Assembly (NCBI GenBank): GCA_947258695.1
Contig: CAMYJG010000017.1
Location: forward strand, 1 to 42,281
From: an uncultured Ectothiorhodospiraceae bacterium
Lineage (GTDB): Bacteria > Pseudomonadota > Gammaproteobacteria > UBA6429 > Thiohalophilaceae
Length of the DNA: 42,281 nucleotides
Direction of reading: 5' to 3'
How positions within the stretch are numbered: the first letter of the stretch is position 1; every line of letters begins with the position of its first letter. The translations under genes were made by a program, and so were the position numbers. Under the pieces are notes generated by a model. The model was not told the origin of the DNA. It ran no database searches and was given only the letters and a program-made list of their open reading frames with translations. Below are positions 1,549 through 26,443 of this stretch, piece after piece.

Positions 1549-1550
1549 TA

Positions 1551-2312: not shown

Positions 2313-2382
2313 GAGATACCTTACAAATTACTATTTTATTGACACAGGATAATATCATAGTTAACTTACTATCGTATTTTAT

Positions 2383-5061: not shown

Positions 5062-5105
5062 TTTTACATCCTTAAGACTGACTTTGTAAGCTGGCTAATA
5101 GTATA

Positions 5106-5456: not shown

Positions 5457-5587
5457 TAAATAGTTATAACATACTGAATTATAACTTATTATTTATCGAT
5501 GTAGAGTATGAAAAAGGTTAAAAATCAGTGCCTTTTAGTGATTTTCTCCTGAGCGCTAACATGCTTGGTGTCTTTCATTTAAGGAGA

Positions 5588-6142
5588 TTATTCTTTTTCC
5601 TGGTATGGCTGCCATAACACTTCACTGCCATTTTCGTGACGTGCTAATACCCGCGCTATAACAAATAATAAGTCCGATAACCGGTTTAAATAACTTATAC
5701 TAAAAGGACTGACTTTATCTTGTTTAGCTAAACTGACAACTCTGCGCTCAGCACGACGACATACCGTTCTGGCCAAATGACATGCTGAAGTCGCCTGGCC
5801 ACCGGAGGGAAGTATAAATTCTTTTAGCATGGGTAAGTCATCATTAAAATTATCTAAGGTAGATTCAAGATAAGTTATGTATGTTTCTTCAAGGGCAGTA
5901 TGGCCTGGTATGCAAAGTTCTCCACCGAGGTCAAAAAGGTGATGTTGAATTCGGTTTAAACACGCAGTTATATTTTCCGGAGTATCACAAGCGAGTATCA
6001 TGCCAATAATACTGTTAAGTTCATCAACAGTACCAAAAGCTTCAATTCGAATATTATCTTTTTCTACGCGTGAACCATCACCAAGCCCGGTATCACCTTT
6101 ATCACCGGTTCGGGTATATATTTTAGATAAACGATGTCCCAT
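5588..6142 (-). CDS. cobO: PduO-type ATP:cob(I)alamin adenosyltransferase
   Basis: A 184-residue cytoplasmic enzyme that transfers the adenosyl group of ATP to cob(I)alamin to make coenzyme B12. The N-terminus carries the family ATP-binding segment IYTRTGDKGDTGLGDGSRV. This is followed by GTVDELNS, LGGELCIPG, FILPSGG and CRRAERRVVSL near residues 128-138, all PduO-family hallmarks. It is therefore the PduO/Cob(I)yrinic type rather than the CobA P-loop type, and the symbol cobO is used loosely. Its start lies 5 bp after the tonB stop with a GAAGG Shine-Dalgarno, so it is the third gene of btuB-tonB-cobO. This places adenosylation in the same riboswitch-controlled unit as corrinoid uptake. Confidence 0.92.
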   Translation of the reverse strand: MGHRLSKIYTRTGDKGDTGLGDGSRVEKDNIRIEAFGTVDELNSIIGMILACDTPENITACLNRIQHHLFDLGGELCIPGHTALEETYITYLESTLDNFNDDLPMLKEFILPSGGQATSACHLARTVCRRAERRVVSLAKQDKVSPFSISYLNRLSDLLFVIARVLARHENGSEVLWQPYQEKE

Positions 6143-6147
6143 AGTTG

Positions 6148-6759
6148 TTAACCTTCTTTTAGTCGATATATTACTGGAATAAGGAATTCTTTAGCACTAT
6201 AAATAAATCCATCTTTTGTTTTTTCTATGTTTTTGACTTTATTTAATGCATTTAGCGCAGATTGATCAAGAACTTGATAACCAGAGCCAGATTTAATACG
6301 GGCATTTTTAATGTCCCCTTTAGAATTAACAAACAGGCTTAACATAACCTTTCCTTCCCAACCGTTTCGACGCGCAAGTCGGGGATAGGTAAAGTTATTT
6401 TTTATTTTTTGAGTTATACGGCTGATTACATAAGCTCTGCTTTGTTTGTTTCGTTTGTTTCGTTTGTTTCGTTTGTTTCGTTTGTTTCGTTTGTTTTTTA
6501 GTTCAGTGCTATTTTTATGAGGGGGCGAAGATAGTTTTTCCTTGAGTAAAGGCTGACGTTCTTTTTTTATAACGTTAGATACTGAATGATTTTTTATTAT
6601 TTTATCGGGGAGAGGTTTAGATATAGATTCTTTAGTAAGTGTAATTTGGTAAGGTATTGCTGGTGTAGATACTGGATACAAGTTAACTGTAGTGAGCCAT
6701 GGCATGAGTAAAATGCCATGGCCTAAGGTAGATAAAATAACTGCGTATCGTAACTTCAT
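6148..6759 (-). CDS. tonB: TonB-type energy transducer with an Asn-Lys-Arg repeat linker
   Basis: A 203-residue inner-membrane-anchored protein that couples ExbBD proton-motive force to outer-membrane receptors. An N-terminal signal anchor covers about residues 5-24. A periplasmic linker follows, containing a run of Asn-Lys-Arg triplets near residues 87-105. The C-terminal TonB domain contains YPRLARRNGWEGKVMLSLFV and ends with FLIPVIYRL. TonB linkers are normally Pro-rich; this one is basic and encoded by a 9-bp tandem repeat (see the repeat entry). It starts 5 bp after the btuB stop and lies 5 bp before cobO. It is therefore probably a dedicated TonB for BtuB, transcribed under the riboswitch. 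exbB and exbD are not in the window. Confidence 0.9.
   Translation of the reverse strand: MKLRYAVILSTLGHGILLMPWLTTVNLYPVSTPAIPYQITLTKESISKPLPDKIIKNHSVSNVIKKERQPLLKEKLSSPPHKNSTELKNKRNKRNKRNKRNKRNKQSRAYVISRITQKIKNNFTYPRLARRNGWEGKVMLSLFVNSKGDIKNARIKSGSGYQVLDQSALNALNKVKNIEKTKDGFIYSAKEFLIPVIYRLKEG
6441..6498. repeat. In-frame 9-bp microsatellite inside tonB
   Basis: About six near-identical 9-bp units (CGTTTGTTT on the plus strand) in tandem, encoding Asn-Lys-Arg repeats in the TonB periplasmic linker. The unit length is a multiple of three, so slippage would change linker length without breaking the frame. Confidence 0.9.
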
Positions 6760-6764
6760 TTCAT

Positions 6765-8543
6765 TTAAAAAACATATGCCAGGTTTATATAATAAGAACG
6801 CTCAGGAGAACGGTATGTCGATGCCAGCTCGTAATCTTCGTCAAATAAGTTTTCTATACGTCCTTTAAGGAATAAGTTCTTGGTAACACTATATTGAGCT
6901 CCAAGATTAACTAAAGTATAACTATCAAGGATTGTAGAATCATAAGCGCTATTGTCACGTTCATCTGTATGAAGCATATCTAAACCAACTTTGAGATCTT
7001 CACTTTTGTAATATATCGAAAAAGTGTAACTGGCTTCACTTCGTCTTGACAAAACAGCACCTGTTGCTTTGTTTTCTGGCTTTTGTAAAATAGCACTCGC
7101 TTTAATTGACCAATGATCAACTGCTAGTTGATAATTGATTTCTGTTCCCCTGATTTGAGCTTCATCAATATTCTGCATCATACTTGTAGCTAAGTCATAT
7201 TCAATTAGATTAGTTATTTCATTATTGAAATGATTTAAACGAATATTATGTTTTGTGCCAATATCGTAGTGAATACCAATTTCAGTGTTGGTTGATTCTT
7301 CTGGTTTAAGATTTGGGTTTCCTGAAGAACCAAATCGGTCAGTACTATCTGGTGAGCGAAAACCAGAGGCAATACCTGCTATGATCTTAATAGATTTATT
7401 TAATTGAAATGAGTAATCAATACTTCCTGTATTATGAGAGCCAAAAGTTTCATGGTTAGTGTGACGAACACCTGCAATGATATGATTATTACCAAACAAT
7501 ATATCATCTTGTAAATAAACAGCATTGATTATAGTGGATTCATCATAATTTGTGCCAAAAGAACTTGCTTTTGTCTTCTCGTTAGATAAATAAATACCTG
7601 CGGTCAACAGTTGAGCGTCACCTAGCTGAATATCATTTTGCCAATCGAACACATCGCGTTTAGTCGTTGCAAAATCAACACTCTGATTTTGTTCAATATT
7701 ATCTTCAGTATGTGATATTTTTACTTTAATTAACCAGTCTGCCGTAATATTGTTTGTTGCATCAAGACTAGTAGTGGAATTTTCAAAATCTTGATCTACA
7801 GGGTTTAAGAAAAAATCAAGATATTCACTTTTACCACTGGCGTTCCAGTGTGAAACTTTAAAGTCTGTCGTTCCCATTCTTTTTTTTCCGTACAAATGAA
7901 TATTCAAGTTATCATAACCGCGTTCAATTGGTGATGTTGTACGAATTGCATAACCATCAGATTCTGTAGCTTCTACAGTTATACCTGCAGCAGTATCATC
8001 TTGTTTATTATGAGATGAAAAACCCACAGTCTTCGTATTAAAAGAACCGTAGCCTGCATTTACATTATATTGGCTACCTTCTTTTCCTTTGCGTGTAATG
8101 ATATTGATAACACCACCAATAGCATCAGAACCATATAATGTTGATCTTGGTCCTTTTACGATTTCTATTTGCTCTACTAGATTAAGATTAAGATTTTGTA
8201 TTGCTGGCGTGCCAAGAGTGCCAGGGTTAATTTTAACGCCATCTATCATTACAAGAGTATGGTTACTTTCTGTACCACGCATAAAAATAGATGTTTGCTG
8301 GCCTGGACCACCGTTTCGTCCTATATCAATGCCGGCATGCATACGTAATAGATCAGATAGAGCAGCATTGGGATTACTTTCAATTTGCTCTCTTTTTATG
8401 ACTATAACCGGTGCGATTGTTTCATCTGCTGTTTGTGCAGTTCGTGTAGCGGTAACAATGATTGGGGATTGTTCAGCTGCGGTTATTGGAGCAGAAATGG
8501 TAGTAGCTAAAGCGACCAGAATTACTTGCCTGGTTTTGTTCAT
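6765..8543 (-). CDS. btuB: TonB-dependent outer-membrane vitamin B12 receptor
   Basis: An outer-membrane beta-barrel that imports cobalamin. The chosen start at 8543 (MNKTRQVILVALATT) has a GAGGA Shine-Dalgarno 9 bases upstream and begins a clean signal peptide (cleavage near TAA-EQ). The open frame extends upstream to 8627, but that part is riboswitch leader. The mature protein has a TonB box (PIIVTATR), then a plug domain with RMHAGIDIGRNGGPGQQTSI, MRGTESNHTLVMIDGVKI and VEIVKGPRSTLYGSDAIGGVINI-type segments. A 22-strand barrel follows, ending YINLAYVF with the terminal aromatic residue. These plug motifs are BtuB-like. It heads the btuB-tonB-cobO unit directly downstream of a cobalamin riboswitch. 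At about 592 residues it matches the family length. Confidence 0.95.
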   Translation of the reverse strand: MNKTRQVILVALATTISAPITAAEQSPIIVTATRTAQTADETIAPVIVIKREQIESNPNAALSDLLRMHAGIDIGRNGGPGQQTSIFMRGTESNHTLVMIDGVKINPGTLGTPAIQNLNLNLVEQIEIVKGPRSTLYGSDAIGGVINIITRKGKEGSQYNVNAGYGSFNTKTVGFSSHNKQDDTAAGITVEATESDGYAIRTTSPIERGYDNLNIHLYGKKRMGTTDFKVSHWNASGKSEYLDFFLNPVDQDFENSTTSLDATNNITADWLIKVKISHTEDNIEQNQSVDFATTKRDVFDWQNDIQLGDAQLLTAGIYLSNEKTKASSFGTNYDESTIINAVYLQDDILFGNNHIIAGVRHTNHETFGSHNTGSIDYSFQLNKSIKIIAGIASGFRSPDSTDRFGSSGNPNLKPEESTNTEIGIHYDIGTKHNIRLNHFNNEITNLIEYDLATSMMQNIDEAQIRGTEINYQLAVDHWSIKASAILQKPENKATGAVLSRRSEASYTFSIYYKSEDLKVGLDMLHTDERDNSAYDSTILDSYTLVNLGAQYSVTKNLFLKGRIENLFDEDYELASTYRSPERSYYINLAYVF

Positions 8544-8665
8544 TAAAATTTCCTCGAGTAATACGCACACCCGCGCGTTTATATTTATTATTCTCAGAGG
8601 GAAAAAAGGTTCGGAATTGAGATTCATCCGCCCGTAATCGCCCTCCGCGATACACTACGATTACA

Positions 8666-8876
8666 TCAGGCCGGTCTCCGGGCTCTCGAGTTATAATCAA
8701 TTTTACATAGTGTAAGTTGACTACAGAATGAATCGCCTTCCCATGCCTATAAGCACAGTGGCAGGAATGATTCACTTCGACTCGACTACCGTTGCGGGGG
8801 CAGCGTCGGAATTGAAAATATATTTCGCACCGACTTCTCGTTTCACGTCGCCAAATGGATTTGGCTTAGCACCTGA
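8666..8876 (-). promoter_or_regulatory. Cobalamin (AdoCbl) riboswitch upstream of btuB
   Basis: Read on the minus strand, the leader shows the consensus pieces in order. There is a P1 arm TCAGG at 8876-8872, then GCCCCCGCAACGGTAGTCG, then GCCACTG followed by TGGGAAGGCG. Next comes the B12-box-like AGCCCGGAGACCGGCC, closed by CCTGA at 8670-8666, which pairs with the P1 arm. This is a class-I cobalamin riboswitch aptamer. It lies about 120 bases ahead of the btuB start, and high adenosylcobalamin would be expected to repress btuB-tonB-cobO. Downstream, GTAATCG (8664-8658) and CGATTAC (8640-8634) form an expression-platform-like hairpin without an obvious U tract, which favours translational control or a longer-range structure. 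Confidence 0.93.
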
Positions 8877-9022
8877 AGTAGTAAAAGTGGCGCAACTTTA
8901 AAGCCAGCAGTGATGTTTGTCAATCAAAATAAAAATGAGAAAAGTAGGGTGGAACGGATAAAATAGTTTAAACACAGTAACTTAGGGATGAGTATTAAGA
9001 GAGTAGGTTATTGTGATTTAGT

Positions 9023-9784
9023 TTAACCAGGCATAAACCAACGTCGTTGATTGTGCCGTGTCTCATGCAGAGGGTATTGGTATAACTCGGTTAAATATTT
9101 TTCGGTTAAAACTTCAGTACATATGCCATGCCGGGTTGTTCCATCAGCATAGATTAGTAAAGCATGATCGCAATAGCGTGTCGCTAAATTAACATCATGC
9201 AAAACAAACACATTGGCCGTGTTTTCATTATTCGAGGTTAAAAGTTTCATTACCTCATGTTGATGATGAATATCGAGATGATTGACAGGTTCATCCAGCA
9301 AGCGAATGTTAGCTTGTTGTACTAATAAGGTTGCGAGTGCAACGCGCTGACGTTCACCACCGGATAAAGTCAGAATTGCGCGTTCGGAAAAGTTATCTAA
9401 ACCAACGGCAGTTAATGTATCTAATGCTAATTGTTTATCGCTATCCGTTTCCCATTGCCAGCTTTTAAGATGAGGATGGCGACCAATTAATACGCTTTCA
9501 AGAACAGTACCAGGGAAATGGTCTTCCTGACTCTGCAATAGTAAGCTGAGTTGTTGTGCCGTTTCTTTTCGTGTTAGTGCATGGAGTGGTTTTTCATTGA
9601 TATAAATCACGCCAGATTGAGCAAGCAATAACCCGGCTAAGTGATGTAAAAAAGTCGTTTTACCACACCCGTTCATACCCAAAATAGCCCAGTTTTCCCC
9701 GGCATTAATAGATAGTGATAAATTTTCACACACTTGCTTATTAGCAATATTAACACTCAATGCATTGCAGCTGATCAGGCTCAT
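9023..9784 (-). CDS. btuD: ABC transporter ATPase for cobalamin import
   Basis: A 253-residue cytoplasmic ATPase of the FecE/BtuD type. Walker A is GMNGCGKTT (residues about 38-46), the Q-loop lies near LLLQSQE, the signature is LSGGERQRVAL, and Walker B is IRLLDEPVNHLD followed by the H-loop VLHDVN. It overlaps the btuC stop by four bases (ATGA), indicating translational coupling. The family also includes heme and siderophore ATPases. The B12 assignment rests on the neighbouring btuB, cobO, cobQ and btuF. The gene ends about 150 bp before the riboswitch, so btuCD seems to be a separate transcript from btuB. Confidence 0.88.
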   Translation of the reverse strand: MSLISCNALSVNIANKQVCENLSLSINAGENWAILGMNGCGKTTFLHHLAGLLLAQSGVIYINEKPLHALTRKETAQQLSLLLQSQEDHFPGTVLESVLIGRHPHLKSWQWETDSDKQLALDTLTAVGLDNFSERAILTLSGGERQRVALATLLVQQANIRLLDEPVNHLDIHHQHEVMKLLTSNNENTANVFVLHDVNLATRYCDHALLIYADGTTRHGICTEVLTEKYLTELYQYPLHETRHNQRRWFMPG

Positions 9785-10755
9785 TGTCTGGCATTCCGTT
9801 GTAATAAAAATAAGAACAAAGGAATTCCAATAAGCGCAGTAATAATCCCAACCGGCAATTGTTGTGGCGCAATCACTGTTCTTGCAGCGGTGTCAGCAAT
9901 TAAAACCAAAATTCCACCACCAAGGGTGGCGGCAGGTAAAAGAAGTCGATGATCAGTGAGGCCGGTTAAGCGAATTAAGTGCGGTACGATAAAACCGACA
10001 AAACCAATAGTTCCTGCTTGTACGACCGCGGCGGCGGTAAGTAAAGATGCAAGAATATAAATCTTGATGTGTAATTGTTTGAGGTTGATGCCTAACGTTG
10101 CAGCAAGCTTATCGCCACGAATTAAAACGTTAAGTTGCGAAGAAAGTAACATACTTAACAATAATCCAATGATTAAGGCACTAAAGGCAAAGGATACTGA
10201 ATAACTGTAGCTAAGATCACCCATTAACCAGAACAACATGCCATGTAAATTTGTTGCCGGAGATATTGTTAAGATTAAACTGATTGCTGCGCCCCAGCCG
10301 GCAGCAATAACAACACCGGTCAGTAATAAACGAGTCGGCGTCCAGTTTCCATTTTGATGTGCAATGATAAAAACCAGGAACATCGCCACTAAGGCACCGA
10401 TAAATGCCAGTCCGGTTAAACCAAAGGCACTACTGAATCCCAATAGCATCCCTATAAGAACAGCCGTTGCGGCTCCGCCTGATACACCAAGAATATAAGG
10501 ATCGGCCAGGGGGTTGCGTACTAACACCTGCATTAAAGCGCCGGCCTGGGCAAGTAATGCCCCTGTTGCAAACGCTGCTAAGCTACGGGGTAAGCGGAGT
10601 TCTGTCACGATGCGCGACGCATCTGGATTTGTTGGTTCAACTAGTGAAAACCAGACAGCTTGCAATGATATTGGCACACTACCGATGAACAATGAGCCAA
10701 TCAGCAGCACGATGCTTATACTCGCTAGCAAGACAATGAAAGTGGCACTACGCAT
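9781..10755 (-). CDS. btuC: ABC transporter permease for cobalamin import
   Basis: A 324-residue polytopic inner-membrane protein of the FecCD/BtuC family. It starts with a membrane helix (about residues 5-28). Family segments include LRLPRSLAAFATGALLAQAG, RNPLADPYILGVSGGAA, GTIGFVGFIVPHLIRL (the coupling-helix region that contacts BtuD) and a C-terminal PVGIITALIGIPLFLFLL. Around ten membrane helices are predicted by eye, as in BtuC. It is translationally coupled to btuD. The upstream region is shared with the divergent Hpt gene, and I see no second cobalamin riboswitch there. Confidence 0.9.
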   Translation of the reverse strand: MRSATFIVLLASISIVLLIGSLFIGSVPISLQAVWFSLVEPTNPDASRIVTELRLPRSLAAFATGALLAQAGALMQVLVRNPLADPYILGVSGGAATAVLIGMLLGFSSAFGLTGLAFIGALVAMFLVFIIAHQNGNWTPTRLLLTGVVIAAGWGAAISLILTISPATNLHGMLFWLMGDLSYSYSVSFAFSALIIGLLLSMLLSSQLNVLIRGDKLAATLGINLKQLHIKIYILASLLTAAAVVQAGTIGFVGFIVPHLIRLTGLTDHRLLLPAATLGGGILVLIADTAARTVIAPQQLPVGIITALIGIPLFLFLLQRNARQ

Positions 10756-10910
10756 GGAAAAAGTCTGATCTAAAAATAATACCTGATTAAAACATCAAAG
10801 CACGATAAATACAAAAAGAGTCATTAGTTATATTGTGGGAATTCGAGTGTGAATTATACCCTTGTTAATCAAACCTAAATATATGGATTAAACAACCGAT
10901 AATATTAACT

Positions 10911-11654
10911 ATGACCGATGTAGCTAACTTACTCGAAGAATTACGTGAAGGTTTCCTTGACGATATGCCGGTGCGCATAGATAAAATCGAAGAAGAAGTG
11001 ATGGCTTCAAAAAATGCGGATTCTTATGATGAATTATTTCGGATGGTACATAGCTTAAAGGGCAGCGCTGGGAGTTATAATTTTCACGAGTTAACTAAAG
11101 TGGCACACAATATGGAAGATGTCATGTTGTCGCAGATGCAGAATAACCTGTTTAACCAGAGCTCAACTGTCGACATCCTGCTCAAGTTTATCGATATATT
11201 AAGAGACACTACCGAGTCATTAGTCGCGTCAAAATCAGCGCCACTTGATATCGATGAACGTATTGAATCATTACGAAACCAGGTTTTTAAACAAGCGCTT
11301 CGAGTCTTGGTAATTGAACCATCAAAACTTTATGTCAGTATGATTGAACATAGTGTACAAGGAATGTCCGTTAATTTGACTGTTCAGAATGATGGCTTAC
11401 AGGCTCTTAATGCCTTGTTACTCAATAAATACGACTTATTGATTACCTCACTTGAAACTAACAGGTTAAATGGGGATGCTTTAATTGCCGCGCTTCGTCT
11501 AAATCACAATTTTAATAAAAATATCCATGCGGTTTTGATTACCTCGCGTGATAAAGAAAAAATACTCAATAACAGCGATTTTGATGAAATTATTGATAGG
11601 AAATCGGTCAAGGATGGGGTAATTAAGTCAATAGTGGAAAAACTCATCGCCTAA
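10911..11654 (+). CDS. Hpt phosphotransfer protein with a degenerate receiver domain
   Basis: A 247-residue cytoplasmic signalling protein. Residues 1-100 are an Hpt four-helix domain with the phosphorylatable His47 in MVHSLKGSAGSY, as in CheA P1. Residues about 130-247 have the receiver fold (RVLVIEPSKL, YDLLITSLETNRLNGD, VLITS, IIDRKS). The essential residues are altered: the acidic pair after strand 1 is Glu136-Pro137, and Ser180 stands where the phosphoacceptor Asp should be. The switch Thr/Ser and the Lys (Lys231) remain. The Hpt half should be active, whereas the receiver is probably a pseudo-receiver. It is followed on the same strand by a ParA-like ATPase and an MCP. The partner kinase is unknown. 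Confidence 0.85.
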   Translation: MTDVANLLEELREGFLDDMPVRIDKIEEEVMASKNADSYDELFRMVHSLKGSAGSYNFHELTKVAHNMEDVMLSQMQNNLFNQSSTVDILLKFIDILRDTTESLVASKSAPLDIDERIESLRNQVFKQALRVLVIEPSKLYVSMIEHSVQGMSVNLTVQNDGLQALNALLLNKYDLLITSLETNRLNGDALIAALRLNHNFNKNIHAVLITSRDKEKILNNSDFDEIIDRKSVKDGVIKSIVEKLIA

Positions 11655-11902
11655 CGCAGTAAGTTTGTAAGTGCCCACTATAAGCGGATTCTAATTAACT
11701 TAACTTTTTTCTAAATTTAATTTAATAAATACAGTTAGTTATATTGCTTATTTTAACTAAGACATTAACTTTATAGTGAAACTAGTCTAAACTGTGAAAT
11801 ACGGCTCATAAAAGTTTCAGGCAGAGCTGTCGATATAAACTAGACTCTAAGTTGAAAGTAACAAGGGTTTGGTAAGTTTGACCCATGGATTAGGTTTTTG
11901 TA

Positions 11903-12589
11903 ATGCAAAAAATACTTGTGATTAATTCAAAAGGTGGTTGTGGTAAAACCACGATGGCGACTAATCTTGCCAGTTATTTTGTAACACAAGATTTATCAAC
12001 CGCATTACTGGATTTTGATCCCCAGGGTTCGAGCATTCGTTGGCTTAATCAGCGGCCAAAATCAGGCCCATCCATTTATGGTGTTCATGTCGCCAGTCGA
12101 AAAAATAATACTGGGGTGACACGATCTTTCCAGATGCGCGTTCCGCCCGAAACTGAACGAATGATTATCGATGCACCGGCCGGTGTGACTGGACATGATC
12201 TCAGAGAGCTTATCAGGCATGTCGACACCATTCTTGTTCCTGTATTACCTTCTTCAATCGATATTCACGCAGTGACTCGCTTTATTGAAGAGTTATTGGT
12301 CGTTGGTAAGGTACGTCAAATGGGGCTCAATGTTGCTGTTATCGCAAACCGGGCCAAGAAGAATACCTTAACCTACCGATCACTGGAGCGATTTTTAAAA
12401 ACGCTAAAGCTACCTTTTATTACCACGTTACGTGATACCCAAAATTATGTGCATGCTGCAGAAAGAGGTATAGGGATACATGAAATGTGGGATAAGCGTA
12501 CTGATAGTGATAAGGCACAATGGCGGCCCCTGGTGCGTTGGTTGGAAGATGTGAATCCGGTCAAAACAAAAAGCAATATAGCCCGTTAG
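11903..12589 (+). CDS. ParA/MinD-family ATPase, orphan
   Basis: A 228-residue cytoplasmic ATPase. The deviant Walker A is KGGCGKTT (residues 10-17). The A-prime motif is DFDPQGSS near residue 41, and a Walker B-like IIDAPAGV follows near residue 92. It lacks a ParB partner and an N-terminal DNA-binding domain, so it is not the chromosomal ParA. Short orphan ParA proteins near chemotaxis genes are known to position receptor arrays (ParC/PpfA type). The MCP gene 245 bp downstream and the Hpt gene upstream make that a reasonable inference. The function is not proven by sequence. Confidence 0.87.
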   Translation: MQKILVINSKGGCGKTTMATNLASYFVTQDLSTALLDFDPQGSSIRWLNQRPKSGPSIYGVHVASRKNNTGVTRSFQMRVPPETERMIIDAPAGVTGHDLRELIRHVDTILVPVLPSSIDIHAVTRFIEELLVVGKVRQMGLNVAVIANRAKKNTLTYRSLERFLKTLKLPFITTLRDTQNYVHAAERGIGIHEMWDKRTDSDKAQWRPLVRWLEDVNPVKTKSNIAR

Positions 12590-18222: not shown

Positions 18223-19071
18223 TTAATCAAATAAAGCTAACAATTCTCCAGCTTTACCACGTTTACTACCATTACAACTTATAAAGCGTTGCACATGAAA
18301 CTTGGTGATTTTTTTTGCATTGTTATATGCTTTACGGGTGAACGCGGTATTGTGATTTGATATTAAAATCGGAATTCCTTTGTTGGATGTTTCATGTGCC
18401 AAGTCGGCAAGTTGTTGTTGTTTATCTTTATTAAAACTACCAGTACTGTAACTGGTAAAGTTAGCTGAAGATGACAGGGGCACGTAAGGTGGATCGCAAT
18501 ATATAACATCACCTGATTTTGCAGATTGAATAATATCTTCAAAGCTTGATAAAACAAATTCAGCATTTGTTGATTTTTTATGAAAAATCAACATTTCTTT
18601 TTCAGGGAAATAAGGTGATTTATACCGGCCAAACGGGACGTTATATCCGCCTTTAAGATTATAGCGGCATAAACCGTTATAACCATGTCGGTTTAAATAA
18701 ACAAATAAAATGGCACGTTTATAAATATCTTTGCTGTCATTAAATTTTTTTCTTAACCTGTAATATTGTTCTTCGTTGTTATAGCGTGGGCTAAAGTAGT
18801 AGCGGCATTTCTTAATAAATTCAGCACCATCTTTTTTTAAAATATTATATAAGTTAATTAAATCTGGATTATTATCATTAATAATATATTGTTCATAATC
18901 TGTATTGAGAAAGACAGCAGCCGAGCCAGCAAATGGTTCAATTAATCGTTTGCCTTTAGGAAGTGCTTTTCTGACATGGTCGATGATACGGTATTTATTT
19001 CCTGCCCATTTGAGAAAGGGGCGGGTGTTTTGGATTGGTTTTTTATTATTAGCTTTAGAAGTAACAGACAT
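18223..19071 (-). CDS. dam: DNA adenine methyltransferase (GATC)
   Basis: A 282-residue D12-class N6-adenine methyltransferase. FLKWAGNKYR is the SAM-binding motif near residue 19, with EPFAGSAAVFLNTDY after it, YLNRHGYNGLCRYN and FGRYKSPYFPE in the target-recognition region. The catalytic DPPY lies in VIYCDPPYVPLSSSANFTSY, and ILISNHNT and LLALFD close the protein. It resembles Escherichia coli Dam along its length, so GATC specificity and roles in mismatch repair and replication control are likely. It begins 3 bp after the argA stop and so is probably cotranscribed with argA, an unusual partner. No restriction endonuclease is adjacent, which argues against an R-M system. Confidence 0.93.
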   Translation of the reverse strand: MSVTSKANNKKPIQNTRPFLKWAGNKYRIIDHVRKALPKGKRLIEPFAGSAAVFLNTDYEQYIINDNNPDLINLYNILKKDGAEFIKKCRYYFSPRYNNEEQYYRLRKKFNDSKDIYKRAILFVYLNRHGYNGLCRYNLKGGYNVPFGRYKSPYFPEKEMLIFHKKSTNAEFVLSSFEDIIQSAKSGDVIYCDPPYVPLSSSANFTSYSTGSFNKDKQQQLADLAHETSNKGIPILISNHNTAFTRKAYNNAKKITKFHVQRFISCNGSKRGKAGELLALFD

Positions 19072-19074
19072 ATG

Positions 19075-20409
19075 TTAAGCCTGTATAGTTTTCGCAAACA
19101 TTTTTGACTGGCGTTGATAATTGTAAAGTGACTTACGTTTTACTGGCAGCTTTTTAATATCAGTTGCAGAGAAACCTCGTTCACGAAACCAGTGCGCGGT
19201 ACGTGTTGTCAGGACAAACAATTGTTTAATACCTAGTTGCTTTGTTTTTCTTTCAATGTATTTAAGCAACTGGTCACCCCGGCTTTTGCCCTGGTAATCC
19301 GGATGCACTGCAAGACATGCCAGTTCTGCAACTTTTTCATTTAAATAAGGATACAGCGCAGCACAGGCGATAATCATACCGTCACGCTCAACAACGGTAA
19401 AATGCTCAATTTCCATTTCAAGTTTTTCACGTGAACGCCTGACTAATATGTCTTCATCTTCTAATGGTGTTATTAACTCGATTAAGCCGGCAAGGTCATC
19501 AATAGTAGCAGTACGGATATCTTCAAAACTCTCAGGGGTGATTAAGGTGCCGCAACCATCACGGGTAAATAACTCAAGTAATAAAGCACCTTCAATATGG
19601 CGGTTTAATATATGTGTCCGTTCTATATCGTGTTGACATGCTTTAATTGCGCTGGACAAACAACGTTGAATTGTCGTGTCTAACTTTTTGTTGTTTTGCA
19701 ACAGAACTTTTGCATCATCGAGCGTTAATTCCCGAATTAAAGAGTTTCTTTTATCTGTTACCCCTTTTGCATCAACCATGTAAATAAGTTTGTTTGCATT
19801 TAATTCAATTGCTGCAGAAGTTGCAACATCTTCTACACTAAGATTAAATATTTCTCCGGTCGATGAATATCCTATGGGCGATAATAATACGATGGAGTTA
19901 TTATCTAGTGCCTGGTTAATTGCGTTAGCATCTATTTTTCTTACTTCACCGGTATGCATATAATCAATACCGTCCCGCACACCATAAGGTTGCGCAGTCA
20001 GAAAATTACCGGAAATTATCCGTATACGTGAACTGCTAACAGGGCTGTTAGTTAATCCAATTGATAGTAAGGCTTCAATATCTGCACGTACACTGCTACT
20101 GGCTTCTTTAACACAAGTGAGTGCTTCATCATTAGTGACACGAATATCGTTAATCACTTCACTGCTTGATTTTTTTTCTTTTAAACGTGATTCAATTTGT
20201 GGACGAGCACCATGCACCAGGACAAGCTTTATACCGAGACTATTTAAGAGGGCAATATCATGAACCAGTGGAGCAAATTGCTCATCTGTTAGCATCTCTC
20301 CACCAAAAGCAACCACAAACGTCCGACCGCGAAAGGCATTGATATAGCCCGCCGAGTTACGAAATGAGTGTACAAACTCAATATTTTTACTGTTTTTATC
20401 CTTGCTCAT
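19075..20409 (-). CDS. argA: Amino-acid N-acetyltransferase (N-acetylglutamate synthase)
   Basis: A 444-residue cytoplasmic enzyme making N-acetylglutamate from glutamate and acetyl-CoA, the first step of arginine synthesis. The N-terminal amino-acid-kinase-like domain (about residues 20-290; VVAFGGEMLTD, LVLVHGARPQIESRL, LLSPIGYSSTGE) binds the arginine inhibitor in relatives. The C-terminal GNAT domain (about 300-440; ELACLAVHPDYQGKSRGDQL, LFVLTTRTAHWFRERGF) carries catalysis. This two-domain form is the classical gammaproteobacterial ArgA. It is followed by dam with a 3-bp gap. A perfect 18-bp palindrome with a central GATC lies about 25 bp upstream of the ATG. Confidence 0.95.
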   Translation of the reverse strand: MSKDKNSKNIEFVHSFRNSAGYINAFRGRTFVVAFGGEMLTDEQFAPLVHDIALLNSLGIKLVLVHGARPQIESRLKEKKSSSEVINDIRVTNDEALTCVKEASSSVRADIEALLSIGLTNSPVSSSRIRIISGNFLTAQPYGVRDGIDYMHTGEVRKIDANAINQALDNNSIVLLSPIGYSSTGEIFNLSVEDVATSAAIELNANKLIYMVDAKGVTDKRNSLIRELTLDDAKVLLQNNKKLDTTIQRCLSSAIKACQHDIERTHILNRHIEGALLLELFTRDGCGTLITPESFEDIRTATIDDLAGLIELITPLEDEDILVRRSREKLEMEIEHFTVVERDGMIIACAALYPYLNEKVAELACLAVHPDYQGKSRGDQLLKYIERKTKQLGIKQLFVLTTRTAHWFRERGFSATDIKKLPVKRKSLYNYQRQSKMFAKTIQA

Positions 20410-20433
20410 GCTGAAATTAAACTTTGCTCAGTA

Positions 20434-20451
20434 TGTTATTGATCAATAACA
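20434..20451. promoter_or_regulatory. Perfect 18-bp palindrome centred on GATC upstream of argA-dam
   Basis: TGTTATTGATCAATAACA reads the same on both strands and lies 25 bp before the argA start. A second GATC occurs at 20456-20459 and a short inverted repeat (CATGC-AAAA-GCATG) at 20461-20474. The shape suggests a dimeric repressor site. It does not match the ARG box. Confidence 0.6.
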
Positions 20452-20557
20452 GTATGATCCCATGCAAAAGCATGTGCAAGCAAGTTTTATAGCGAAATTT
20501 TGCTACAAGGAGTAGTGATTGTAAAAAGGATAAGTAGCGAAGGAAAAGAGTTAAATA

Positions 20558-20584
20558 GCCCCCTTTGTATGTAACAAAGAGGGC
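20558..20584 (-). terminator. Probable intrinsic terminator of the SH3-domain gene
   Basis: On the minus strand, GCCCTCTTTG and CAAAGGGGGC form a 10-bp stem around a 7-base loop, 30 bp after the stop codon of the SH3 gene. The following TATTTAA is only moderately T-rich. Confidence 0.6.
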
Positions 20585-20613
20585 AGATTGATTTAGTTAA
20601 AAATGGATCTTAT

Positions 20614-21285
20614 TTACCAACTGCTACGCTTACGGCCACGCAGTTTGGGAATGATCAAGCCCAGGATCATGCCGCCAAATAAGACCAGCGCACCGGCGAT
20701 AAACCACTCACGTTGAGATCGATCTTTTAATGATTGATTTTCCTGGTTAAGGCGCTGTAGATCTTTTTCCAGGGTTACATTTTTTTGCTGTAACTCTCGG
20801 TTTTGCTTATCAAGGATAATCGGTTTTTTAGCTATTTCATTTAAACGGGCTAATTCAGTATCGAGTTTCTGTTTATCGGTCGATAAGGTAGCCTGGTTTT
20901 GTGATACTGTTTTGTGTTCTTTGCTTAAGGTCGCATATTTCTCTTTCAGGCTTTTTAGTGCGGCTCTTGTTTTTGCCAACCTTGATTCTGCTCGTTCCAG
21001 CTTTTCTTTGGCTACCGGTTCTTTAGCCAGATATTGTGATCGTACCCAGCCTTCTGTTCCATCTGCTGTTTCGATTCGGGTATAACCCGTATCGGTAGTT
21101 TCAAGAACTTCGACATGCTCACCACTTTCCAGGGTTTTAATAATCTGGAATTGTGCACCTTGTCCCGTGCGTACTGTAATGACAAGGTGATCACTGACAT
21201 ACTGAGTCTCGGCTTGTGCAGAAAAAGAGAATACCAAGGTCAAAAAGTAAGAAATAATGAGAACCGATTTTTTTGCAAATTTCAC
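20614..21285 (-). CDS. SH3-domain and coiled-coil membrane-anchored protein (TIGR04211/YgiM-like)
   Basis: A 223-residue envelope protein. A signal peptide covers about residues 1-25 (cleavage near AQA-ET). A bacterial SH3 domain covers about 28-90 (TVRTGQGAQFQIIKTLESGE, GWVRSQYL). A long coiled coil covers about 95-195, and a C-terminal membrane helix (WFIAGALVLFGGMILGLIIP) is followed by a basic tail RGRKRSSW. This is the layout of the TIGR04211 'SH3 domain protein' family related to YgiM, whose function is poorly defined but envelope-linked. It stands alone between argA and the ABC ATPase. Confidence 0.88.
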   Translation of the reverse strand: MKFAKKSVLIISYFLTLVFSFSAQAETQYVSDHLVITVRTGQGAQFQIIKTLESGEHVEVLETTDTGYTRIETADGTEGWVRSQYLAKEPVAKEKLERAESRLAKTRAALKSLKEKYATLSKEHKTVSQNQATLSTDKQKLDTELARLNEIAKKPIILDKQNRELQQKNVTLEKDLQRLNQENQSLKDRSQREWFIAGALVLFGGMILGLIIPKLRGRKRSSW

Positions 21286-21360
21286 CGAGAAATACCTGTT
21301 ATTTGTTATTAGTTTTATTAAGCTTTATTTATACACTTTTTTGGCAAATGCTCAAGTGCC

Positions 21361-22407
21361 TTAGGCCTGACGGAAGGCAACCATGTGATCAAGTTCAAGA
21401 CGGAGCTTCACTTTTTCTCCAATTTCATGATTATGATGGCTAGGAAAAAGTGATAAAACTTCTATATTGCTTTCTAATTGAAGAGTGTAAAGAATTTCGG
21501 CACCTTTAAAGGCTTTTTGAATAACCGTGGCTTCGAGGTTGCCTTTGCTGTCTGCGATAATATCATCCGGACGCAGCAGTAATTCAACTTCAGTCCCTGA
21601 ATCCCATTCATAGGCACGGTCTCCCATAATCATACCCAAAGAGGTTTCTACTGTATCGTGTGAAGACAAGATACCCGGGATTAATACGCCCTGGCCAATA
21701 AAATCAGCAACAAAACGGTTTGCTGGAGAATGATATAAATTGTATGCACTGTCACGTTGCAAGATTTGCCCCTTATTCATTACAGCTATCATGTCGCCAA
21801 AGGAAAAGGCTTCATGCTGATCGTGTGTAACTAATACACCCGTGGCGCCACGTGCTTTTAAGATGTCACGAACATCCCTGCTAAGACGTTCACGCATCTC
21901 AATATCGAGATTGGAAAAGGGTTCATCAAGTAAGATTAATTTCGGTTCTGGCGCAAGTGCACGAGCCAGTGCCACGCGTTGTTGTTGCCCACCTGAGAGC
22001 TCGTGGATATAACGATCGCCGTAGCCAGACAAATCGACGATTTCGAGCATTTGATCAACAATCTGCTGTTTTTCTTTGTCCGTTTTATTGCGCAAACCAA
22101 AGCTGATGTTTTGATTAACATCCATATGCGGGAATAAAGCGTAATCCTGAAAAACCATACCAATCTGACGTTTTTCGGGCGCCTTGGTATAGCCAGGATA
22201 CGAGATACGTTCGCTGTTTAGTAATATTTCACCACGGTGCAATGTCTGAAACCCGGCAATAGCACGTAAAACAGTGGTTTTTCCGCAACCACTAGGACCG
22301 AGTAAGCAATGCAGGTCACCTTCATTAATATGACACGACATGTCATGAACGACAGTGTGTCCACGATGCTGGCAATCAATATTTTTTACTTCGAGAATGG
22401 GTTTCAT
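21361..22407 (-). CDS. ABC transporter ATPase, Fe3+/polyamine (FbpC/PotA) type
   Basis: A 348-residue cytoplasmic ATPase. Walker A is GPSGCGKTT near residue 38, the Q-loop lies in VFQDYALFPHMDV, the signature is LSGGQQQRVALARAL, Walker B is LILLDEPFSNLD and the H-loop is VLVTHDQHEA. A C-terminal regulatory TOBE-like domain follows (about 240-348). Best fit is the ferric-iron FbpC group, because of the Fe-type sequence style and a Fur-like site 29 bp upstream. No binding protein or permease is adjacent, so the partner genes must be elsewhere. From memory, a similar lone ATPase sits near argF in Pseudomonas, which matches the argF neighbour here. Confidence 0.85.
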   Translation of the reverse strand: MKPILEVKNIDCQHRGHTVVHDMSCHINEGDLHCLLGPSGCGKTTVLRAIAGFQTLHRGEILLNSERISYPGYTKAPEKRQIGMVFQDYALFPHMDVNQNISFGLRNKTDKEKQQIVDQMLEIVDLSGYGDRYIHELSGGQQQRVALARALAPEPKLILLDEPFSNLDIEMRERLSRDVRDILKARGATGVLVTHDQHEAFSFGDMIAVMNKGQILQRDSAYNLYHSPANRFVADFIGQGVLIPGILSSHDTVETSLGMIMGDRAYEWDSGTEVELLLRPDDIIADSKGNLEATVIQKAFKGAEILYTLQLESNIEVLSLFPSHHNHEIGEKVKLRLELDHMVAFRQA

Positions 22408-22435
22408 AGAAGGAATGATACAGCTTTTGCAGCCA

Positions 22436-22454
22436 AATGAGAACCAGACTCATT
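22436..22454. promoter_or_regulatory. Fur-box-like inverted repeat upstream of the ABC ATPase
   Basis: A 19-bp inverted repeat (arms AATGAG and CTCATT) lies 29 bp upstream of the ATPase start. By hand it matches 13 of the 18 non-central positions of the palindromic Fur form AATGATAATnATTATCATT. It is also within 100 bp of the porin promoter region. Confidence 0.5.
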
Positions 22455-22512
22455 TACAAAACTAATATCAAAAGTATTTTCATGCATTTTAAGCAGGTTA
22501 TTTTAACCATTT

Positions 22513-22545
22513 TGTCATAAATCTGTTATCCGGTTGTCATACTCG
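22513..22545 (+). promoter_or_regulatory. Pho-box-like triple direct repeat upstream of the porin
   Basis: Three half sites, TGTCAT at 22513, TGTTAT at 22524 and TGTCAT at 22535, are spaced exactly 11 bp apart with AT-rich spacers, as in PhoB binding sites (consensus CTGTCATAwAwCTGTCAy). The block ends about 73 bp before the porin ATG. A possible -10, CAATAT at 22551-22556, lies at the spacing seen when a Pho box replaces the -35. Confidence 0.72.
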
Positions 22546-22618
22546 ATCTTCAATATGGGCTCCGTTTAAAGACACACAGATAAAGTCTAATTTTTACAAT
22601 ATAACCTGGGGATAACTC

Positions 22619-23614
22619 ATGAATAAAAAACTAATTGCCGTTGCTGTTGCAGCAGGTCTGTCATTACCAATGGTTTCTGCTCAAGCAGTTGAAGTAGTCG
22701 GTAAAAAACTTGAAATTTACGGTAAATTACATTTGAACTATGGTTCATATGAAAAAGGTACTGGAACGACTGTTACTTCAGATAACTGGCTTTTAACCAG
22801 CAATGCTTCACGTCTAGGATTTAAAGGCGAAGTACCTTTGGATGGTGGCTTAAAGGGTACATATAAATATGAAAGCGAAATCGCTGTAGAAGATGGCACG
22901 ACTACATTTGCAGGTCGTAACACTTATGTAGGTTTAAAAGGTGGTTTCGGTGAAGTACGCATTGGTCGTCATGACTCTCCATTAAAAATGGCTCAAGGTA
23001 AATTTGACCAGTTTGGTGACACAGAAGGTGATTTAAAAAACGCCGGTGATGAAGACGGTGAAAATCGTAATAAAAACTCAATTACTTACCTGGGTAAGTC
23101 AGGTGACGTTAAGTTTAATCTTCAAATCGTTCCGGGTGAAGGTGATGGCGTGGCAGCAGGTGACGGCCCAGCTGATACTATCTCTGCGGCTGTTTCTTAC
23201 AAAAGTGGTCCACTCTATGTTGCTTTAGCACAAGATTCATATGACAGCACGGGTGGTGCTGCTGAAGATTCTTTAACTCGTGCAGTTGCAACTTATAAAA
23301 TGAGTGGCATGCAGTTTGGTGTTTTATACCAAACAGGTGTTGAAGCACCTGATACAGCAGCAGCAAGCGAAGATTGGTTAGGCCTGAGTTTCAATATGAA
23401 AATGGGTAAAAACAATAAGTTTAAAGCTCAATACATCATGGTTGAAGACAGTAATAACCCTGCTCGTGAAGGTACACACCTTTCTATCGGTATTGATCAT
23501 AAGTTAGGTAAAAAAGGTACGTTGTATGCAATGTACAACATGCTTGAAGAAGAAACTACAGCTACTGTTGTAGACAACAGCTCAATTTCAGTCGGTTACG
23601 TTCTGAAATTCTAA
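22619..23614 (+). CDS. Outer-membrane general porin (OmpC/PhoE-like family)
   Basis: A 331-residue trimeric porin candidate. The signal peptide is about residues 1-23 (VSAQA-VE). The mature part begins with KLEIYGKLHLNYGS and has porin-4 family features: SRLGFKGEVPLDGGLKGTY, GRNTYVGLKGGFGEVRIGRHDSP, a constriction-loop region with DQFGDTEGD, and many alternating beta-strands. The C-terminus is SISVGYVLKF with the terminal Phe needed for Bam-dependent assembly. It forms a passive channel for small hydrophilic solutes. The Pho-box-like triple repeat upstream suggests induction by phosphate starvation, as for PhoE; anion selectivity cannot be read from sequence alone. It is monocistronic, with two hairpin terminators behind it. 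Confidence 0.93.
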   Translation: MNKKLIAVAVAAGLSLPMVSAQAVEVVGKKLEIYGKLHLNYGSYEKGTGTTVTSDNWLLTSNASRLGFKGEVPLDGGLKGTYKYESEIAVEDGTTTFAGRNTYVGLKGGFGEVRIGRHDSPLKMAQGKFDQFGDTEGDLKNAGDEDGENRNKNSITYLGKSGDVKFNLQIVPGEGDGVAAGDGPADTISAAVSYKSGPLYVALAQDSYDSTGGAAEDSLTRAVATYKMSGMQFGVLYQTGVEAPDTAAASEDWLGLSFNMKMGKNNKFKAQYIMVEDSNNPAREGTHLSIGIDHKLGKKGTLYAMYNMLEEETTATVVDNSSISVGYVLKF

Positions 23615-23645
23615 TTGTTGATGTAAAGAGTACACGGAAGAAAAA

Positions 23646-23672
23646 GGTAACAGGGAAGTTACCGATTTTTTT
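23646..23672 (+). terminator. First terminator after the porin gene
   Basis: GGTAAC and GTTACC form a 6-bp stem around a 6-base loop, followed by GATTTTTTT, about 30 bp after the porin stop. Confidence 0.65.
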
Positions 23673-23684
23673 AACTTCCTTTAT

Positions 23685-23719
23685 AAGTCCTGTATGCGAA
23701 AGTATACGGGACTTTTTTT
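23685..23719 (+). terminator. Second, stronger terminator after the porin gene
   Basis: A long stem (AAGTCC...GGGACTT with TGTAT/GTATAC inside) and a GCGAAAG loop are followed by a run of T. It reaches the stop codon of the convergent Sel1-repeat gene. Confidence 0.85.
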
Positions 23720-24284
23720 ATTTCCAGCGCTTAGCTTCTTTTAGATCCTTTGCTATGCCAAATAAGCCTTCTGAATAAACTCTGTAGAGTGCTGCACGTG
23801 AATCTTTGTGACCTTGCCTGGCAGATTTTTTCCATAAGCTAATGGCTAGTTCGACGTTTTTTTTCAGAGTGCGGCCATAAGCATATTCAACCGCAAGATT
23901 AAATTGTGCATCGGCATTGCCTAGTTCGGCTGCTTTTTTCCACCACTTGGCGGCATCCTTCGGACTACGATAAACAACCCGTCCCTGGTTATACAGAATG
24001 CCCAGGTTATACATGGCATCGGTGTTGCCATTTGCTGCCGCGAGTTTGTACCATTTAAAAGCGATTTTTATATTTTTTTCCACTCCCAGGCCTTTCATAT
24101 ATAAAATACCCAGGTTGTATTGCGCCTCGTGGTTATCTTTTTCAGCTAAAGGCAACCACAAGCGTAAAGCTTGCTCATATTTACCTGCCGTGAATGCTTT
24201 GAAGCCCTCTTCAAGTTCAGCGGCCTGTATCGAAGAGAATGAAATAACAGTTATTAAAAAAGGAACAGTAAAACGTCTTAGCAT
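23718..24284 (-). CDS. Exported Sel1-repeat (TPR-like) protein
   Basis: A 188-residue protein with a signal peptide (about residues 1-21, SIQA-AELEE). Four to five Sel1-like repeats follow, each about 36 residues with the pattern A-x-YNLG-x-LY-x-G-x-G (DNHEAQYNLGILYMKGLGV, NTDAMYNLGILYNQGRVV, NADAQFNLAVEYAYGRTL). Such solenoids mediate protein-protein contacts in the periplasm; no enzymatic role is implied. It lies downstream of argF on the same strand but separated by about 50 bp, and is convergent with the porin. Partner unknown. Confidence 0.88.
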   Translation of the reverse strand: MLRRFTVPFLITVISFSSIQAAELEEGFKAFTAGKYEQALRLWLPLAEKDNHEAQYNLGILYMKGLGVEKNIKIAFKWYKLAAANGNTDAMYNLGILYNQGRVVYRSPKDAAKWWKKAAELGNADAQFNLAVEYAYGRTLKKNVELAISLWKKSARQGHKDSRAALYRVYSEGLFGIAKDLKEAKRWK

Positions 24285-24332
24285 AATGAATTTAGCCGGT
24301 GATAGTTGTATAGGTAATTATAGACGAGCTTA

Positions 24333-25244
24333 TTATTTTGTCATTAATAGCTCGAGTAATGCTTTTTGAGCATGCAGGCGATTTTCTGCCTGATCCCAAA
24401 CCACACTTTGTGGGCCATCAATAACACTTGCGCTGACTTCTTCCTCACGATGTGCAGGCAGGCAGTGCATGAAAATGGCATCTTTATTCGTCAGTTCCAT
24501 TACACTGTCATTAACCTGGAAGTCTGCAAATGCTTTTTCACGTATTTTTTGTTCTTCTTCTTGCCCCATACTTGCCCAGACATCCGTGGTGATCATATCT
24601 GCGTCTTTTGCTGCATCATGTGGATTACGATAAATATTCACATAATCTTTTGTTTGCTCTAACAACGTGGCGTCAGGATCATAGCCTTCAGGTGCAGCTA
24701 TATTTAAAGTGAAACCATACTGACGTGCGGCATTCATGTAGGAATGGCACATGTTATTGCCATCTCCAATATAAGTAACCGTTTTTCCTGTTATGTCACC
24801 ACGATGTTCAAAATAGGTTTGCATATCAGCAAGCAACTGGCAAGGATGATACATATCTGTCAATGCATTAATCACAGGTACCTTGGAATATTCAGCAAAT
24901 GTTTCTAACATCTCGTGATCAAAAGTTCTGACCATAATGCAATCAACCATACGAGATAATACTCGTGCACTATCTTCAACAGGTTCACCACGTCCAAACT
25001 GGGTATCACGTGGTGACAGGAAAATTGCATGTCCGCCAAATTGCACCATACCAGTTTCAAAGGAAACCCGGGTCCGGGTAGAAGACTTATCAAAAATCAT
25101 TCCCAATACCTGGTTTTTTAGCGGCTCATAAATTTCACCGGATTTTTGAATTTTTTTAAGCTCTACAGCACGGCTGACAAGCTGGGTTAAAGTCGCTTTG
25201 TCTAAATCCATTAGAGTCAGAAAGTGTTGAGTCATAATACTCAT
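24333..25244 (-). CDS. argF: Ornithine carbamoyltransferase
   Basis: A 303-residue cytoplasmic enzyme that makes citrulline from ornithine and carbamoyl phosphate. The carbamoyl-phosphate loop is [10 protein letters not shown] (residues about 54-63), and HPCQ lies near residue 132. The ornithine-side motifs are DVWASMGQE and [11 protein letters not shown]. Length and motif order are those of a standard anabolic OTC. It is 26 bp downstream of argD, forming argD-argF, both probably controlled from the argD promoter and leader. Confidence 0.96.
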
Positions 25245-25270
25245 CCTGCTAAAAGTTTATAAAAGTATAA

Positions 25271-26443
25271 TTAAGAAATGAATGTGCGAATTAAACCGCT
25301 GACCTTGTCGACAATTTGATCAGCTTGTTCATCAGTAATAATAAGTGGTGGCAATAAACGCACAACATCGCCGGCAGTGACATTAATTAAAATGCCAGCA
25401 TCAAGCCCAGCTTTTACTAGCTCAGCACAAGGACGATCGAGTTGAATACCAATCATTAAGCCTTTATTACGTATTTCGACGACGGCGTCGATATCTTGCA
25501 AGCTCTCTTTGAAAGCAGCTGAAAGTTTTTCACCCAGCTGTGTTGCTCTTTGCGCCAGTTTATCTTTTTCACATGTTTCAATCACGGCGAGAGCAGCAGA
25601 TGTGACTAATGGGTTACCACCGTATGTTGAGCCATGGTGTCCGGGTTGAAACAGTTTCGCGGCTTCACCTTTTGCTAAACACGCACCAATCGGTACACCG
25701 TTACCTAAAGCTTTCGCTAATGTCATAACATCAGGGGTTATATTATTATGTTGGTGCGCAAACCATTTTCCGGTTCGACAGATACCGGTCTGGATTTCAT
25801 CCAGCATCATTAACCAGTTTTGCTCATCACAAATATCACGCAGCTGATTAAGGTAATCGTCAGCCGGAATATTAATTCCACCTTCGCCTGTTATGGGTTC
25901 AACCAGGACAGCAACGACGTTTGGGTTATTTTTCGCAATGTTTTTTACGGCTTCAATATCATTATAAGGGGCACGTACGAAACCCTGAACCAGCGGTTCA
26001 AAGCCAGCGTGAATTTTCCGGTTACCGGTTGCAGTTAAAGTCGCCATGGTTCGGCCATGAAAGCTTCCTTCCATAACAATAATGGCGGGTTGATCGATGT
26101 TTTTGCTGTGACCATAAAGCCGTGCAAGTTTTATTGCTGCTTCATTTGCTTCAGCACCTGAGTTACTGAAAAAGACATTGTCCATTGCGGATAACGAGGT
26201 GAGTTTATCCGCGAGTTCTTGTTGTTTTGTAATACCATACAGATTTGATGTATGTACGAGTTTATCTGCCTGTTCACAGATGGCTTTTGTTACGGCAGGG
26301 TGTGCATGACCAAGACCACAAACAGCAATACCCGCTAAGGCATCAAGGTATGTTCTGCCTTCAGTATCCCACAGTACCGCACCTTCACCTTTTTCAAAGC
26401 TAACGGGCAGAGGTGCATAGTTGTGCATCAAGGTATCGGTCAT
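25271..26443 (-). CDS. argD: Acetylornithine aminotransferase
   Basis: A 390-residue PLP-dependent class-III transaminase that converts N-acetylglutamate semialdehyde to N-acetylornithine (and may serve lysine synthesis). NSGAEANEAAIKLARLYG binds the PLP phosphate. EPITGEGGI, LDEIQTGICRTGKWFA and the PLP lysine in LAKALGNGVPIGA follow, then HGSTYGGNPL. It is first of the argD-argF pair. Its 5' leader contains a strong hairpin plus T-run only 27 bp before the start codon (separate entry), suggesting control by premature termination. Confidence 0.95.
   Translation of the reverse strand: MTDTLMHNYAPLPVSFEKGEGAVLWDTEGRTYLDALAGIAVCGLGHAHPAVTKAICEQADKLVHTSNLYGITKQQELADKLTSLSAMDNVFFSNSGAEANEAAIKLARLYGHSKNIDQPAIIVMEGSFHGRTMATLTATGNRKIHAGFEPLVQGFVRAPYNDIEAVKNIAKNNPNVVAVLVEPITGEGGINIPADDYLNQLRDICDEQNWLMMLDEIQTGICRTGKWFAHQHNNITPDVMTLAKALGNGVPIGACLAKGEAAKLFQPGHHGSTYGGNPLVTSAALAVIETCEKDKLAQRATQLGEKLSAAFKESLQDIDAVVEIRNKGLMIGIQLDRPCAELVKAGLDAGILINVTAGDVVRLLPPLIITDEQADQIVDKVSGLIRTFIS

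Follow-up and report, generated by a model that had tools for sequence, protein, structure and literature searches.

Several porins are known to be controlled by the Pho regulon. One is PhoE of Escherichia coli, an OmpF/OmpC-like porin; another is OprP of Pseudomonas, OprP/OprO of Pseudomonas aeruginosa being an outer-membrane channel for phosphate starvation. In Vibrio cholerae, the porin VCA1008 (PhoE) is described as being made under phosphate limitation, and the title of a cited paper presents it as anion-selective (PMC13157583; PMC3511308). KpnO of Klebsiella pneumoniae is reported to be a PhoB-regulated porin with a putative PhoB site (PMC3405095). The Pho box itself is described as at least two tandem CTGTCAT-like repeats with an 11-bp period (PMC3511308). 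Searches of the open-access literature gave no report of a Pho-controlled porin in Thiohalophilus or its relatives. The whole stretch of DNA analysed here (42,281 nucleotides), hereafter the window, comes from a gammaproteobacterium related to Thiohalophilus, in whose genome (3.2 Mb, 95% complete) it forms contig 17, and encodes a porin preceded by repeats of the Pho type (Table 1).

Predicted Pho box and promoter of the porin gene

The porin gene and the divergent ATPase gene are separated by a 211-bp gap, in which the sequence TGTCAT-N5-TGTTAT-N5-TGTCAT is present at 22513-22540 with an exact 11-bp period. The tandem CTGTCAT-like repeats expected of a Pho regulon promoter (at least two, with an 11-bp period) are thus found upstream of the porin. 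The first-pass annotation had described a Pho box of three repeats; the repeats and their period stand, but the box has four units, the upstream TTTAAC having been overlooked. In every one of the six genus orthologs whose promoter could be read, this weaker unit is either TTTCAT or TTTCAC, and the porin Pho box was set at 22502-22540 because the four 11-bp repeats are kept in the window and in six genus orthologs.

Table 1. Positions of the features discussed (window numbering unless another locus is named)
Feature	Position	Strand	Basis or remark
Divergent ABC-transporter ATPase	21361..22407	-	best families PhnT2, PotA, ferric type
Pho half-site 1, TTTAAC, weak	22502..22507	+	one period upstream of the 22513 unit
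Pho half-site 2, TGTCAT	22513..22518	+	sequence, pattern and matrix scans
Pho half-site 3, TGTTAT	22524..22529	+	sequence, pattern and matrix scans
Pho half-site 4, TGTCAT, downstream unit adjoining the promoter	22535..22540	+	sequence, pattern and matrix scans
Putative -10, CAATAT, exactly 10 bp past the last half-site	22551..22556	+	spacing compared with orthologs and E. coli
Conserved 5' leader with Shine-Dalgarno GGGGA	22557..22618	+	ortholog leader comparison
Porin, 331 aa, Porin_4 (Omp32/PorB type)	22619..23614	+	Pfam, sequence and fold comparison
Likely intrinsic terminator, 13-pair stem and T-run, after the porin	23685..23714	+	
Pho boxes before the PhoU-like/Pit pair and polyphosphate kinase 1	L084:6904-6931 and 9074-9101, contig C7		

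With up to three mismatches allowed, the triple pattern occurs at a single place in the window, there with one mismatch, for 0.05 matches expected; 5 of 100 shuffled windows contained at least one such match. A hexamer matrix trained solely on eight E. coli K-12 Pho sites (phoE, phoA, phoB, two at pstS, phoH, ugpB and phnC) attributes 25.3 bits to the porin site when three units are counted and 27.0 bits with all four, versus 13.4 bits over three units for the next separate place in the window. Among 40 windows simulated with a first-order Markov model, the highest score was 20.3 bits.

The proposal that a -10-like CAATAT lies at the proper distance from the box also holds, the 10-bp gap being that of E. 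coli phoA and phoB, where TATAGT and CATAAT stand at this distance; TAAAAA, TATTTT and TACAAA are found there at E. coli phoE, pstS and ugpB. A CA(N3)T hexamer follows the last unit by 10 bp in the window, in all six readable genus orthologs and at the pstS gene of the same genome, whose phoB gene has TCTAAT, and no CA(N3)T, at that place. A consensus sigma-70 scan listed no -35/-10 pair involving CAATAT, as expected of an activator-dependent promoter. The box lies in the place of the -35 element, with the putative -10 at the distance usual in Pho promoters.

The leader is conserved, and a CCCC close to its start can base-pair with the GGGGA of the Shine-Dalgarno sequence, enclosing a small hairpin. 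The consensus fold of eight leaders (that of the window and those of L040, L041, L042, L043, L044, L049 and L136) includes three pairs with a compensated change, one change each. The leader of the window folds no better than its shuffles (z +0.62; the other seven, -0.54 to -1.72), and an Rfam scan of 20000-24500 gave six matches up to E 5, all far under their gathering scores. The pairing is weak in the window itself, and a structured leader RNA was kept as a side observation.

Conservation of the box and divergent ATPase gene

The six orthologs from the genus of the window share 73-83% identity with the porin, or 67-70% where they are fragments. Four in-register units are present in the window and in all six of these orthologs with a readable promoter (22.2-32.2 bits), and each of the seven promoters outscores all 500 dinucleotide shuffles of itself. 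In the promoter alignment, the site is kept across the genus while the flanking bases vary. The sole match in an eighth genus genome (G005) is a porin of a second lineage (see below), also with a box. Furthermore, a pattern scan of 24 genomes gave 104 matches versus 26 in reversed controls, and 55 versus 7 in the eight genomes of the genus, a porin promoter being among the matches in seven of the eight. To gauge the background, porin neighbourhoods were cut into 2,680 blocks of 220 bp, of which 15 reached at least 15 bits over four units, 13 of them porin promoters; some DNA enters this count twice because a few loci are one record present in two collections.

PhoB could also bind these repeats with the ATPase gene as its main target, or with both genes as targets, a reading that we consider unlikely. 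The ATPase scores under the curated cut-off of all 25 families listed. In favour of this reading, its gene adjoins the porin gene in 8 of the 15 lineage loci that were searched; the genus of the window and Thiohalophilus are represented among these eight. The half-sites, however, have a direction, and the conserved -10 is oriented toward the porin; the best score toward the ATPase is 11.4 bits over three units; L043 keeps the porin site although its gap is some 70 bp longer and its sequence upstream of the box is different; and L045, L047 and L140 retain the box with no ATPase neighbour in the DNA searched. Co-control of the ATPase gene with the porin is possible. The ATPase is a neighbour kept in part of the lineage, and the reading of the site as a PhoB site of the porin is independent of it.

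Pho genes and likely Pho sites elsewhere in the genome

The genome encodes PhoB (351.1 bits; cut-off 296.2), PhoR (412.5 bits; cut-off 334.2) and PstS (271.5 bits; cut-off 206.6) according to profile searches, and boxes are present at its pst genes, as in a genome with a Pho regulon. Genome-wide, eight places match the triple pattern when three mismatches are tolerated, and the reversed control gives none. The porin site is the only one of the eight with a single mismatch and is therefore the closest triple Pho box in the genome. Five of the seven other matches are at phosphate genes: (i) two overlapping registers of the pattern lie upstream of pstS, (ii) a minus-strand match overlaps the start of phoB, which has two strong plus-strand half-sites only (14.5 bits over three units), (iii) one match lies upstream of a pair formed by a PhoU-like (PhoU_div) gene and, after it, a gene for a Pit-type phosphate transporter, and (iv) one lies upstream of polyphosphate kinase 1 (ppk1). 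Low-affinity phosphate uptake and polyphosphate storage thus seem to belong to the predicted Pho regulon here.

The two remaining matches are off phosphate genes, one upstream of msrA and one inside a DUF411 gene. Over three units, the msrA match (21.0 bits) outscores those at pstS (20.2 bits) and ppk (18.7 bits); therefore, a matrix score alone is no proof of a PhoB site. The msrA match (L086, about 2794-2821) was seen by eye to lie in an apparent inverted repeat, GTCATTGCGAG ... CTCGCAATGAC, and is perhaps a dispersed repeat rather than a PhoB site.

Another OmpR-family regulator, of the OmpR, PhoP, PmrA or CpxR type, could bind the porin repeats and make the porin part of an envelope-stress or osmotic switch. 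Such regulators bind direct repeats with a period of 10-11 bp, porins are classical OmpR targets, and the PhoB model is matched over almost its whole length by five further proteins of this genome, whose scores (150.7-218.3 bits) are under its cut-off. This explanation is nonetheless rather improbable: the identical hexamer and period recur at pstS, phoB, the PhoU-like/Pit pair and ppk, so that the hexamer is here a mark of phosphate genes and speaks against a different OmpR-type regulator, and a matrix made from E. coli PhoB sites alone singles out the porin site. The PhoB profile has 92 matches in the genome (G000), mostly to the receiver part alone; two-component and hybrid signalling proteins are thus abundant.

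It is very improbable that the repeats resemble a Pho box by chance or are a functionless relic: some lineage members lack the site, their porin working without a box, and the msrA match shows that Pho-like strings arise without phosphate genes, but the porin site is the best in the genome, exceeds the expectation per window given above, and recurs in all six readable genus orthologs among variable flanks.

The first-pass annotation had also stated that the segment contains no other pho genes. Indeed, none was recognised by Pfam among 34 of the 42 listed open reading frames, scanned at E 0.001 or E 1e-10 (three had no match at E 1e-10); the other eight, of 100-182 aa, overlap larger reading frames and were outside the scan. 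At 658-12589, the window encodes a periplasmic binding protein, a TonB-dependent receptor, TonB, a FecCD permease, an ABC ATPase, a cobalamin adenosyltransferase and a CbiA-like protein, a cluster possibly devoted to vitamin B12 uptake and handling. The porin is flanked (18223-26443) by arginine genes, namely those of N-acetylglutamate synthase, ornithine carbamoyltransferase and acetylornithine aminotransferase, and by a Dam-family methylase gene.

Features of the porin

The gene downstream of the box had been called a porin, which was confirmed: its product matches Porin_4 with 137.9 bits (cut-off 27) versus 35.6 bits for Porin_1, and the AlphaFold model, computed with 15 aligned sequences, is a porin barrel with 17 strand segments (mean pLDDT 82.5), whose structural matches are 16-stranded porins. 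The seven PDB sequence matches at E 0.1 are all Omp32 and PorB (E 6.6e-11 to 1.1e-7). The best fold matches are PorB and Omp32 (Z 28.6-29.4), with a Burkholderia porin tied at 28.7. Family profile and predicted barrel fold both place the protein in the Porin_4, or Omp32/PorB, group. Orthology with PhoE was rejected on the basis of the family, of the nearest relatives and of a Foldseek search, in which Omp32 came first and PhoE (1pho) ranked 48; 1pho is absent among the 50 VIA-align matches listed, which was not counted as evidence.

Residues R65, R100, R150 and E85, invariant among 15 porins, align with R38, R75, R133 and E58 of Omp32, which presumably line its anion path. A basic cluster with a glutamate is given as a feature of porin anion paths in PMC3723809. 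R65, R100 and R150 would be compatible with an anion-conducting pore like that of Omp32. Among 42 porins, R100 and K123 are present in 42, R65 in 40 and R150 in 31; in the 11 others an aromatic residue takes the place of R150, and no box precedes any of these 11; ten R150-bearing porins outside both lineages are also without a box. These residues do not, therefore, mark Pho-linked porins. This applies to the loop-3 lysines to which the first-pass annotation had pointed: K123 does lie within loop 3, but it is common to all the porins compared, whether or not they carry a Pho box, and thus does not prove that the pore is a phosphate channel. With a pI of 5.0 the porin is acidic, and the net charge over its loop-3 stretch is -3, features that do not suggest a phosphate-selective pore.

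Distribution of the box among porin lineages

In the porin search of 40 genomes, 27 contributed to the 50 matches listed. A first survey scored 42 of them and three further loci, leaving out eight matches (fragments, second pieces of counted genes, and L138); six porins were added from later genomes, with one match without a locus left unscored. In total, 51 porins were scored, over 220 bp upstream of each.

The lineage of the window comprises 18 of these porins, assigned by the tree or, for four outside it, by 55-70% identity. Ten score at least 13 bits, two score 7.0 bits, and six are without a site within 220 bp, one of which (G022) has a candidate site about 400 bp upstream. The 7.0-bit sites belong to Thiohalophilus and a sister of the same genus, and their units and -10 are still in register; that of the cultivated species Thiohalophilus thiocyanatoxydans is degenerate (7.0 bits over four units). 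In the second lineage (33-38% identity; 11 porins, four of them placed by identity alone), nine score at least 13 bits, one scores 10.0 bits and one is without a site; G021 is loosely attached to it, three box-less porins branching between. Strong four-unit boxes of this lineage were observed at L015, L018, L022, L143 and L144 (17.9-25.9 bits). Among the 22 other porins, 21 score at most 3.3 bits; the exception is G033b (23.1 bits), whose gene is broken across two frames. The four other Porin_4 matches of the genome of the window, three of them over the cut-off, have no box within 220 bp.

On a tree of 42 proteins, which excludes the short proteins G002, G007 and G033b and the six later porins, and on which the weak-scoring G008 and G011 were treated as Pho-labelled, the Pho label requires six changes, at least five of them forced by well-supported branches, versus 12.0 for shuffled labels. 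Pho control would therefore track the porin lineage, with several gains or losses. A tentative extension of this, which we hold as a possibility, is that two distant Porin_4 lineages, that of the window and the one at 33-38% identity (about 350-360 aa), were each placed under PhoB while other porins of the same genomes were not, that control was thus gained and lost repeatedly, and that in the lineage of the window a leader RNA masking the ribosome site may bring in regulation at a second level.

Predicted control and function of the porin

Very probably, the porin is preceded by a PhoB operator of four half-sites that replaces the -35 element, and phosphate limitation would lead to the production of the porin and to a higher permeability to phosphate. 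PhoB control, as first proposed from the repeats, is well supported as a prediction: the hexamer, period, orientation and gap to the -10 fit, like sites are present at pstS, phoB, the PhoU-like/Pit pair and ppk, and orthologs keep the site. The porin would most likely be made when phosphate is scarce.

In brief, phosphate limitation would cause PhoR to phosphorylate PhoB; PhoB dimers on the tandem repeats would hold the sigma-70 RNA polymerase at the -10; the Omp32/PorB-type porin would then be produced; and the added pores could raise the permeability of the outer membrane to phosphate and other small anions, feeding PstS. PhoB binding, induction and activation, the trimeric state of the porin and its permeability to phosphate are expected here from what is known of PhoB/PhoR systems and of porins. 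A role of the porin in phosphate uptake appears likely because of its regulation, not its structure. The comparison with PhoE made in the first-pass annotation holds as an analogy of role, and the porin probably functions like PhoE, but it is of the Omp32/PorB (Porin_4) type and not PhoE by descent. The initial finding thus stands in the main, the number of units in the box and the kind of porin being the two details corrected.

Comparison with known systems

The locus resembles E. coli phoE in that a porin stands behind a Pho box in the -35 place (the E. coli box being recovered here), in its general porin fold, and in that the other porins of the genome are without a box. Unlike PhoE, the porin of the window is best matched by Porin_4 and not Porin_1, and its box has four clear units. 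VCA1008 of V. cholerae can be likened to it by description, as an anion-selective porin of phosphate limitation. KpnO, likewise by description, is a PhoB-linked porin, but one reported in connection with antibiotic and disinfectant resistance (PMC3405095). OprP/OprO differ in belonging to the Porin_O_P family (PF07396), to which the porin of the window has no match at E 0.001. By sequence and fold, its nearest relatives are Omp32 of Delftia/Comamonas acidovorans and PorB of Neisseria, with which it shares about 20-24% identity.

The comparison also provides a handful of likely Pho sites in a genus that is represented here by assembled genomes alone, and a clean comparative case in which box-bearing and box-less porins occur within the same genomes. 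Pho-controlled porins, known from enterics and Vibrio, would thereby be extended to the gammaproteobacterial Thiohalophilus family and to porins of the Omp32/PorB type.
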